Below, in pieces: positions 10,314-33,503 of a stretch of 64,000 nt of DNA. The notes below the pieces were generated by a model. It was not told the origin of the DNA. It saw only the letters and a program-made list of their open reading frames with translations, and searched no databases. Position 1 is the stretch's first letter. Each line of letters opens with the position of its first letter. Source of the stretch: Actinotalea sp. JY-7876. Lineage in GTDB: Bacteria; Actinomycetota; Actinomycetes; Actinomycetales; Cellulomonadaceae. The translations under genes and the position numbers were made by a program. The stretch spans positions 1,736,001 to 1,800,000 of the forward strand of contig NZ_CP059493.1 in assembly GCF_014042015.1 (NCBI RefSeq), given 5' to 3'.

Positions 10314-10700
10314 TCACGTCGACCCGCCGCCCGTCCGGTACTGCGCGTAGATCAGTCCGCTGCCGAAGCGCCGTTCCTCGACGAGCTCCAGGTCGAGTCG
10401 CACGCCGTCCGGGAAGATCCGCGTGCCGCCGCCCACGACGCTCGTCGTGATGAACAGGTGGTACTCGTCCACCAGGCCCGCTCTGATCGCCTGGGCGGCG
10501 AGCGTCGGACCGTCGATCGTCAGGTCGTGCTCCGCCTCGAGCTTCAGCCGGCGCACCGCCGCAGGATCGAACGTGCGTTCGACCCTGGTCCGCGCGCTGG
10601 ACCTGCTCGAGCGTCGTCGAGTAGACGACCTTCTCCGCGGCCTGCCAGTGCTCAGGGGGCTCATGATCACATCTGGCACCTCGGTGCCGAGCCTCTGGGC
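10314..10700 (-). pseudogene. Remnant of a DHFR-like (RibD C-terminal domain) reductase gene
   Basis: The C-terminal half of a dihydrofolate reductase-like protein is recognisable but split across frames. One frame gives HWQAAEKVVYSTTLEQV; a second, reached by a one-base shift near 10595-10605, gives ARTRVERTFDPAAVRRLK followed by DLTIDGPTLAAQAIRAG and the family ending RLDLELVEERRFGSG to a TGA at 10314-10316. A compensating shift in the opposite direction may occur near 10663, before HWQ. The N-terminal half with the cofactor-binding start is absent, and the P-type ATPase gene begins at 10740 on the other strand. Loss of the 5' half plus frameshifts marks it as a pseudogene rather than a sequencing artefact, although one indel alone could be an error. 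Confidence 0.75.
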
Positions 10701-31438: not shown

Positions 31439-31702
31439 TCAGAGGTGCGTGTACACGTCCTCGAGCGTGAGGCCGCGGGCGATCATGAGCACCTGCAGGT
31501 GGTAGAGCAGCTGCGAGATCTCCTCGGCCGTCCGCTCGTCCCCCTCGTGCTCGGCGGCCATCCACACCTCGGCGGCCTCCTCGACGATCTTCTTGCCGAT
31601 CGCATGGACGCCGGCGTCCAGCTCGGCGACCGTGCCCGAGCCTGCGGGGCGGGTGGCGGCCTTGTCGGCCAGCTCGGCGAACAGCGAGTCGAACGTCTTC
31701 AC
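31439..31702 (-). CDS. hisE: Phosphoribosyl-ATP pyrophosphatase
   Basis: An 87-residue all-helical enzyme that removes pyrophosphate from phosphoribosyl-ATP, the second step of histidine synthesis. The MazG-like signature is clear: [39 protein letters not shown] (the EEAAE metal site), [19 protein letters not shown]. Start GTG at 31702, with a minus-strand TAGGCT at 31716-31711 eight bases upstream, so besides readthrough from pnuX it may have its own near-leaderless promoter. HisI is not in this window. Confidence 0.95.
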
Positions 31703-31713
31703 GACGTCAGAGC

Positions 31714-32439
31714 CTAGACGCCCTGGTCGCGGGCGGCGGCCCCGTCCACGGCGAGGGTCCCCGCGCCGGACGACGCGGTGATCTGCTGCGCCCGGCCGGT
31801 GCGTTGCGCCCGCACCCACACGGTGAAGCCGTAGAGCACGACGGCGCCGTAGACCGCGTAGAGGAACGCCGACGGGTAGTAGCCCGCCTGCAGGAGCAGC
31901 GGCACACCGACGATGTCCACGGCGATCCAGATGAGCCAGAACTCCGTCCAGCCCCGGGCCATGCCGTAGGTGGCCAGGAAGCTCCCGGTGAAGATCCACG
32001 CGTCGGCCCACGGGCCCCAGGAGCCGAGGGCCTGGAAGACGAGCGCGGAGACCACGGTGCCGACGGCGGCCGCCACCACGAGCTGGATGCGGCCCCGGCG
32101 CCCGGCCCAGGTCGGCACGATCGCCGTGCCGTCGCCGTCCGCTCCGCCCTCGGCCTGGGCCTGCCGCCACCGGACCCAGCCGTAGACCGCGACGGCGACG
32201 AAGAAGACCTGTCGCCCGGCCTGCCCGTAGAGGTCCTTGGCCTGCGGCGTGTCGAACACGCCGCCGAGGAAGACGGTGAAGAGCAGCACGTTCCCCACGA
32301 TGCCGACGGGCCAGGCCCACACCCGGCGGCGCAGGCCGCCGACGGCCGAGGCGAGCCCGAAGAGGTTGCCGATCACCTCGCGCCACAGGATGGGGTACCC
32401 GGCGATCGTGAGCTGGGCGTCGAAGAGCCAGTCGATCAT
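31714..32439 (-). CDS. pnuX: PnuC-family transporter, likely riboflavin uptake (PnuX)
   Basis: A 241-residue membrane protein with about seven to eight helices and the PnuC pattern. It has an N-terminal segment with [18 protein letters not shown], then [22 protein letters not shown] with a vitamin-site Asn, YGWVRW, and [30 protein letters not shown] with the conserved WxxxD. PnuC proteins take up nicotinamide riboside, but those under FMN riboswitches are riboflavin importers (PnuX). An FMN riboswitch at 32601-32750 controls this gene, so riboflavin is the better guess. Translation seems coupled to a 24-codon leader ORF through an ATGA overlap. It is followed by hisE. Confidence 0.9.
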
Positions 32440-32510
32440 CGCCGGCCCCCTCGGGGGGTGGTGATCGTGGGCGGCGTGCTGCGGAGCGCGCGCGCTGCGG
32501 CGGTCGTCAT
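32436..32510 (-). CDS. 24-codon leader ORF coupled to the PnuX gene
   Basis: It starts ATG at 32510 with AGGGAGA 5 bases upstream and encodes a basic, Thr/Ala/Pro/Arg-rich peptide ([15 protein letters not shown]...). Its TGA overlaps the transporter ATG as ATGA. The transporter's own GAGGGGG site can pair with the CCCCC just before it, which would be melted by ribosomes finishing the leader. It lies between the riboswitch and the transporter. Absence of homologues cannot be checked here; the ribosome site and overlap are the evidence. Confidence 0.55.
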
Positions 32511-32600
32511 GGCATCTCCCTCGGGCGGTCAGCTCCGGGGGTGCGCGACGGGTCGCGTCGACGTCGCGCCGGCACCAGAAAGTGCCGTCGCTGACGCCAC

Positions 32601-32750
32601 GTGCTTCCTCCCATCCGGACTTTCACCGTCGGTCCTGGAGTTCCACCAGGTCAACCGCCCTCGATCGCGGCCCGCACCGAGTGGTGCGGATCACGGTCGT
32701 GGGCGGGTCGCGGACTGTCACCGCCGGCTCGGACTTTCACCGACCCCGGA
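32601..32750 (-). promoter_or_regulatory. FMN riboswitch (RFN element)
   Basis: On the minus strand, the aptamer reads GGGGTCGGTGAAAGTCCGA, then GGCGGTGACAGTCCGCGACCC, GTTGACCTGGTGGAACTCC, and GACCGACGGTGAAAGTCCGG with GATGGGAGGAAGCA at the 3' end. These are the conserved junction strands of the FMN aptamer, in order. The variable arm between holds CCGCACCACTCGGTGCGG. FMN binding should lower expression of the downstream leader ORF and transporter. The switch mechanism (terminator or ribosome-site occlusion) is not evident; a stable GC hairpin (GCGCGACG arms) follows at about 32535-32565. Confidence 0.95.
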
Positions 32751-32808
32751 GCACGTAGTAGTTCGCCGACAGTGTGCCACAGCGTCGCTGGGGCCCGGTG
32801 GGACGTCC

Positions 32809-32849
32809 GGCTCAGTGCGTGGGCTCAGCGCGTGGGCTCAGTGCGCGTG
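32809..32849. repeat. Three 13-15-bp tandem repeats spanning the rpe stop
   Basis: GGCTCAGTGCGTG (32809-32821), GGCTCAGCGCGTG (32822-32834) and GGCTCAGTGCGCGTG (32835-32849) lie in tandem, the third with a 2-base insertion. The rpe stop codon (32838-32840) is inside the third copy. Confidence 0.8.
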
Positions 32850-33503
32850 GGCTTCGCGGGCGAGCGTCCGGAGCTCGTCGATCGCACCAGCGGCGTCGTC
32901 GGCCGTGTAGATCGCCGAGCCGGCGACGAAGACGTTCGCGCCGGCCTCTGCCGCACGCTCGACGGTGCTCGCGGACACGCCCCCGTCCACCTGGACCCAG
33001 ACGTCCAGGCCCGCCTGCTCCACGGCCCGCCGGGCGCGCCGGATCTTGGGGAGCATGACGTCGAGGAACGGCTGGCCGCCGAAGCCGGGCTCGACCGTCA
33101 TGACCAGGAGCATGTCCAGCTCCGGCAGGAGGTCCAGGAAGGGCTCGACCGGCGTCGCGGGGCGCAGCGCTAGGCCGGCCCTCGCACCGAGGCGTCGCAG
33201 CTCGCGCGCCAGCCGCACCGGCGCCCGCGCGGCCTCGGCGTGGAAGGTGACGGACGCGGCGCCGGCCTCCGCGAAGCCGGGCGCCCAGCGGTCCGGGTCC
33301 TCGATCATGAGGTGGGTGTCGACCGGCACCGGCGAGACCGCCACGATGCGCTCGACCACCGGCAGGCCGAGCGTGAGGTTGGGCACGAAGTGGTTGTCCA
33401 TGACGTCGACGTGCACCATGTCGGCGCTGCCGATGCGCCCCAGCTCGCGCTCGAGGTTGGTGAAGTCGGCGGAGAGGATGCTGGGCGAGATCACGACGTC
33501 CAT
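32838..33503 (-). CDS. rpe: Ribulose-phosphate 3-epimerase
   Basis: A 221-residue TIM-barrel enzyme interconverting ribulose 5-phosphate and xylulose 5-phosphate. Motifs are [37 protein letters not shown] (metal His and Asp), [27 protein letters not shown], and [10 protein letters not shown] with a second catalytic Asp, then FVAGSAIY. The length matches the family. The ATG at 33503 has CACACT exactly six bases upstream, consistent with leaderless mRNA. It precedes the FMN riboswitch region; in related actinobacteria riboflavin synthesis genes often follow rpe. Confidence 0.97.

Follow-up and report, generated by a model that had tools for sequence, protein, structure and literature searches.

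A short ORF between an FMN riboswitch and a pnuX-type importer gene in Actinotalea sp. JY-7876 as the probable scar of a rib operon deletion

Introduction

In Actinobacteria, FMN riboswitches control the PnuC-paralogue riboflavin importer PnuX (RibM), whose gene stands either alone or in a rib operon (PMC4418817). The freshwater actinobacterium acI-A4 is described as having no rib operon, a sole FMN riboswitch located before a putative PnuX, a retained RibF and, by prediction, an auxotrophic way of life (PMC5301498). A riboswitch that acts through a translated short ORF is described for Mycobacterium tuberculosis, where a B12 riboswitch masks the SD of the short ORF uPPE2, uPPE2 overlaps ppe2 by AUGA, and reporters showed that ppe2 is made mainly by termination-reinitiation (PMC11260477). 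A literature search covering titles and the openings of abstracts found no case of an FMN riboswitch with a translated leader.

How does the present locus compare with these systems? The window, a stretch of 64,000 nucleotides from Actinotalea sp. JY-7876 (NZ_CP059493.1, positions 1,736,001 to 1,800,000), carries on its minus strand, in this order, rpe, an FMN riboswitch, a leader ORF, pnuX, hisE and hisG. With the described FMN-pnuX/ribM units it shares a PnuC-paralogue importer presumably under FMN control (PMC4418817). With acI-A4 it shares the loss of the rib genes, the lone FMN riboswitch-PnuX pair and the retained kinase, and the portions of that report drawn on here mention no leader ORF (PMC5301498). 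Like uPPE2, judged by sequence and spacing, the window's short ORF has an SD, adjoins the platform and overlaps the next start; unlike the window, the uPPE2 system involves another riboswitch class and other genes, and ppe2 is described as lacking an obvious SD whereas pnuX has one (PMC11260477). The window ORF also differs from uPPE2 in its visible origin, a probable gene fusion. The deletion of four rib genes is our main finding and was absent from the first-pass annotation of this DNA.

Results

The features of the locus are collected in Table 1. The FMN aptamer, placed by the first-pass annotation at 32601-32750, is matched by Rfam at 32757-32598 over the full model (1-138 of 138), with 84.1 bits, above the curated gathering score for FMN riboswitches of 66.2. 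Re-reading of the sequence bore out the leader as first reported, with its ATG at 32510, AGGGAGA upstream, 24 codons and an overlap with the importer in which the leader TGA and the pnuX ATG share ATGA (32439-32436, minus strand). The suggestion that the transporter's GAGGGGG pairs with the neighbouring CCCCC also holds in RNAfold, which pairs 32458-32454 with 32450-32446.

Table 1. Features of the riboswitch-leader-pnuX locus, in window coordinates
Feature	Position	Strand	Basis and remarks
rpe	32838..33503	(-)	5' neighbour of the riboswitch; same place in relatives whose stretch extends that far
FMN riboswitch aptamer (RF00050)	32598..32757	(-)	Rfam match; the only RF00050 match in the whole genome
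GCTCCGGGG, 5' side of P1 and next bases, putative antisequestor	32744..32752	(-)	9/9 complementary to the platform element
CCCCGGAGC platform element, apparently inherited from the ribD leader	32532..32540	(-)	Exact in 21/24 ribD-type loci
Leader SD AGGGAGA, the likely ancestral ribD SD	32515..32521	(-)	Sequence and alignment with relatives
24-codon leader ORF	32436..32510	(-)	ATG 32510, TGA 32438-32436; start aligns with ribD start; ribH-type stop
CCCCC-CGA-GGGGG hairpin covering the pnuX SD	32446..32458	(-)	Local RNAfold
pnuX SD GAGGGGG	32452-32446	(-)	Sequence
pnuX/ribM-type riboflavin importer gene (predicted), 241 aa	31714..32439	(-)	ATG 32439; family matches and FMN riboswitch context
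hisE	31439..31702	(-)	11 nt 3' of pnuX; order kept in relatives where the stretch reaches

What does the importer carry? PnuX belongs to the PnuC family by its match to Pfam NMN_transporter (PF04973, E 4e-48). Since it also passes the cut-off of the NCBIfam PnuC model TIGR01528 (67.3 versus 42.45 bits), automatic annotation may call it a nicotinamide riboside transporter. Our assignment to riboflavin is drawn from the riboswitch and the operon context, not from a family model: the gene is linked to an FMN riboswitch in the window and to rib operons in the relatives, as PnuX/RibM genes are. A second, distant PnuC-family protein (38% identity) is encoded outside the window, at G000:C1:2150175-2150774 of the same genome, and is probably another vitamin transporter.

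The nearest named relatives are Actinotalea and Cellulomonas. We fetched 31 stretches, of which 29 (all except L121 and L122) contain an FMN riboswitch. In 24 of these 29, the riboswitch is followed on one strand by ribD, ribE, ribBA and ribH, while in five (L120, L123, L124, L175 and L176) it lies directly before pnuX. In 22 of the 24 ribD-type loci pnuX comes next after ribH, and the aptamer lies 3,496-4,002 nt from pnuX, as against 159 nt in the window. The junction of ribH and pnuX is tight in all but one of these 22 loci, with a gap of −4 in nine, −1 in six, 0 to +8 in six and +41 in one. Likewise, ribH is immediately upstream of pnuX in all 20 family-sample matches of at least 72% identity, the window genome apart, and also in G011, which lies outside that sample. 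In G033 and G125, whose PnuX proteins are 86% identical to that of the window, ribH ends in ..GGAR* and ..GGTR*, respectively, on a GTGA overlap. The rib operons of two close relatives (L114 from G008 and L115 from G011) have in common with the window rpe, the riboswitch, the platform, the SD and start of the first gene, the tight junction of the last gene with pnuX, pnuX itself and hisE; unlike these operons, the window lacks the four biosynthetic genes, and the start of the first and the stop of the last appear fused into 24 codons. In two further ribD-type loci, L174 (G010) and L177 (G012), ribH is followed by hisE with no pnuX match, and it is the importer that is missing instead.

Relative to the loci with a rib operon, about 3.5 kb is missing at the window locus. 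When the interval 32640-32380 is used as a query, G011 matches it in two pieces, 1-135 and 192-261, of 89% identity each and 3,480 bp apart; similarly, G002 matches at 1-130 (80%) and 197-261 (89%), with 3,574 bp between them. Among the matches listed by E in the 221 genomes searched, only the window genome itself matches across the junction. The stretch from aptamer to start is closely similar in the window and the relatives, and the leader ATG, at +88 from the aptamer end, occupies the position of the ribD ATG of G008; in G011, a GTG is found at +89. In G008 the match extends to query position 169, about 38 nt beyond the leader ATG, at 84%. At its other end the leader closes with ..GGRR* on ATGA, in the same frame as the ribH ends of G033 and G125. 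The similarity of this tail is short: ungapped comparison with five relatives finds 9-11 shared bases among the 20 that precede the pnuX start. The central part of the leader (about 32505-32449), for which neither G011 nor G002 gives a significant match, is of uncertain origin.

We conclude with high confidence that the leader is a deletion scar. It is best read, on this comparative evidence, as the first codons of ribD fused in frame with the final codons of ribH. Comparison directly supports the match to the riboswitch family, the loss of the genes, and homology both at the leader start and on the pnuX side of the junction; the short similarity of the ending suggests a ribH origin for the last codons. 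A single genome of this kind was found. The reverse event, insertion of rib genes into an ancestral short form, is disfavoured, as near relatives carry rib genes here and none is found elsewhere in the window genome.

Were the rib genes lost or merely displaced? Searches of the one-contig window genome found no ribD, ribE, ribBA or ribH, and the ribH search that came up empty there was positive in 14 of 14 control genomes. With RibD-RibE-RibBA of G008 as tblastn query, the only match in the window genome is one of 57 residues and 49% identity to the RibD C-terminal domain. This stretch (genome position 1746419; window 10419-10583, minus strand) lies inside a longer frame, which probably encodes a dihydrofolate-reductase-like protein and not RibD. 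The same query with RibH added recovers all four proteins in G008 and G005 (the RibD of G005 being cut by the contig start), and three in G006, where the match ends at a contig edge. The riboflavin kinase (flavokinase) domain is kept in the window genome. Because ribD, ribE, ribBA and ribH are gone, the cell probably cannot make vitamin B2 and must import it; from its sequence, we predict the organism to be a riboflavin auxotroph.

Across the family sample, 143 of the 150 genomes carry ribH, as do 135 of the 139 good ones; the good genomes without it are the window genome (G000), G006, G029 and G032. G006 is ruled out as a second loss, since its ribD-ribE-ribBA match runs to the contig end. 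G029 has no clear rib gene, and G032 has one strong match (the RibA part of RibBA) together with weak ones. Each has a single FMN riboswitch just upstream of pnuX in another gene context (L175 and L176, respectively), so that all three good genomes lacking ribH with no contig edge to account for it retain an FMN riboswitch and pnuX, in parallel with what is described for acI-A4 (PMC5301498). G029 and G032 are nevertheless ruled out as copies of the window event: neither rpe nor hisE is matched within 1.5 kb of pnuX in them, and they look instead like a standalone FMN-pnuX unit.

To which start does the expression platform point? The element CCCCGGAGC is found 3' of the aptamer in 21 of the 24 ribD-type loci, as against 0.28 expected from mononucleotide shuffles, and the relaxed form CCCCGGRG in 23 of them. 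In the 20 ribD-type loci where both are assigned, the element lies 28-35 nt before the ribD start. In the window it lies 30 nt from the leader ATG versus 101 nt from the pnuX ATG. This spacing lends support to the earlier proposal that FMN acts on the leader ORF, in that the platform is aimed at the leader start just as it is aimed at ribD; the switching of the SD itself is a prediction. Pairing of CCCCGGAGC with GCTCCGGGG excludes P1, because GCTCCGGGG, complementary at nine of nine positions, includes the P1 5' strand as located by the Rfam model alignment. The platform element can also pair locally with the SD, with an MFE of −15.0 kcal/mol in the window and of −14.8 to −26.7 kcal/mol in the 23 ribD-type loci folded. 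On sequence grounds, the layout is that of a translational OFF switch. RFN elements are said, by Vitreschak and colleagues, often to act through SD masking.

Several observations count against the switch model or are neutral. The window sequestor is weaker (−15.0 kcal/mol) than those of G008 (−20.8) and G011 (−18.5), from which it differs at three positions; equally weak sequestors occur in L116 and L158 (−14.8 kcal/mol each). In whole-RNA folding, the mean unpaired probability of the leader SD is 0.37 with the antisequestor forced, 0.26 with P1 forced and 0.22 when folding is free. The corresponding values for the relatives, antisequestor versus P1 forced, are 0.22 and 0.30 in L114 (reversed), 0.36 and 0.30 in L115, and 0.21 and 0.20 in L117. 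These differences are small or reversed, in the window and relatives alike, and show no clear switch. The alignment of the platform (21 sequences; L158 was omitted as identical there to L116, and L170, L173 and L177 for want of an assigned start) is neutral on the pairing, because the core is invariant and the SD nearly so. Finally, a scan of 32400-32950 found no intrinsic-terminator-like site, a weak point in favour of the model, and a scan for sigma-70 type promoters found no match; shuffles gave none of either.

How might pnuX now be controlled? We propose that a deletion of about 3.5 kb occurred inside an ancestral FMN-riboswitch-ribD-ribE-ribBA-ribH-pnuX-hisE operon. It would have taken out ribE and ribBA entirely, together with nearly the whole of ribD and of ribH. 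The riboswitch would remain, followed by the SD and start codon of ribD and by some codons of ribD fused in frame to the final ribH codons, with the ribH stop overlapping the pnuX start in ATGA. With FMN bound, P1 would form and the freed CCCC element could pair with the leader SD, turning the leader off; without FMN, the P1 5' strand could pair with CCCCGGAGC and free the SD, turning it on. Ribosomes finishing the leader would stop on the pnuX start, open the CCCCC/GGGGG hairpin on its SD and reinitiate, and FMN control of the importer would thereby outlast the biosynthetic genes. Taken whole, a deletion scar through which FMN control passes to pnuX is the likely and best explanation. In our analysis, FMN most likely controls initiation at the leader, and pnuX would be translated at least in part through termination-reinitiation at ATGA. 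The ATGA overlap favours such coupling, while the strong SD that pnuX has of its own counts against it; taken by itself, the claim that the leader carries FMN control to pnuX is one toward which we lean. A stronger version is doubtful, namely that the ORF is obligatory and that selection kept its frame because FMN controls the auxotroph's importer by way of translating the 24 codons.

The same scar could also be functionally silent. The leader would then be a neutral remnant, pnuX would initiate from its own GAGGGGG, and FMN control would be lost or weak. The strength and normal spacing of the pnuX SD fit this reading, as does the lower stability of the window sequestor than of its G008 and G011 counterparts; a deletion would join the frames about one time in three without selection, and a more open importer may be of advantage to a riboflavin auxotroph. 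In addition, four loci (L009 in the relaxed form, L030, L055 and L015) have the platform adjoining pnuX, 36, 45, 32 and 45 nt before its start, respectively, with no leader, unlike the window, where a coding leader intervenes. Against a neutral remnant, both the platform and the leader SD retain close similarity to their counterparts before ribD in the relatives, and the ATGA overlap together with the predicted hairpin on the pnuX SD favours coupling. We consider it improbable.

Is the leader instead a purpose-evolved peptide or attenuator, conserved in the FMN-pnuX class? In favour of this are the SD, the start, the ATGA overlap and the poly-C/poly-G hairpin, as seen in the first-pass annotation. 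We searched for loci by an aptamer 3'-end sequence pattern (L001-L110), which misses variant aptamer ends and yielded 22 deduplicated loci with the aptamer at most 350 nt from pnuX. An upstream ORF that is preceded by an SD and stops −4 to +8 nt from the start of the importer gene occurs in only two of the 22, the window and L017; that of L017 is a 47-codon GTG frame unlike the window leader. An SD-led leader frame is thus uncommon at direct loci but possible by chance. Because the leader is matched by one dissimilar frame among these loci and its start is the ribD start codon of the relatives, a conserved, purpose-evolved leader peptide is rejected as highly improbable. The first interpretation as a whole is partly supported: the platform aimed at the leader and the ATGA overlap favouring coupling stand; the leader as a feature shared across FMN-pnuX units does not. 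Its proposal that only ribosomes finishing the leader reach pnuX is conjectural, given the good SD that pnuX has of its own.

It is scarcely credible that an assembly error dropped the 3.5 kb: the empty site would look identical, but the genome is a single contig rated 100% complete, the junction contains about 56 nt that neither flank of G011 matches, and the rest of the genome yielded no rib gene.

Discussion

If a deletion scar with FMN control passed on through the leader is the correct reading, then loss of a pathway can, in a single step, place a transporter under a riboswitch that used to serve the biosynthesis operon. A regulatory upstream ORF could then arise as a by-product, taking its start from the first deleted gene and its stop from the last, and a leader ORF that looks odd may have been left by a deletion instead of having evolved as an attenuator. 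Riboflavin auxotrophy and FMN control through the leader are testable predictions.

Deletion need not be the only way by which the importer comes to adjoin the riboswitch. The order rpe-FMN-pnuX-hisE can also arise in another way, because it is seen in G051/L009 (74% PnuX identity) and L055 (72%), both outside the family sample, with no ribH at the locus and no leader. In all, rpe, riboswitch and pnuX with no rib genes between them were observed in L030 (G001), L009 (G051), L055 and L015 (G041), followed by hisE in three of the four. G001 and G051 have ribH on another contig, and in G041 it lies about 3.4 kb downstream of pnuX; the L055 genome, for which completeness is not given, yielded no ribH. 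As G001 and G051 keep ribH elsewhere, an importer can reach the riboswitch without loss of the pathway. Judged by these four loci, the rib genes seem to have changed place relative to pnuX on more than one occasion. Among the five direct units of the fetched stretches, the exact platform element is present in L123 and absent from L120 (the same locus as L009), L124, L175 and L176.

Finally, we note that hisE and hisG (window 31702-30531, minus strand) lie directly 3' of pnuX. FMN control might extend to these histidine biosynthesis genes, since hisE begins so soon after pnuX and hisG follows. In the wider set of 110 loci, some of them duplicated, hisE is in reach in 44 of the 48 that have ribH near pnuX.
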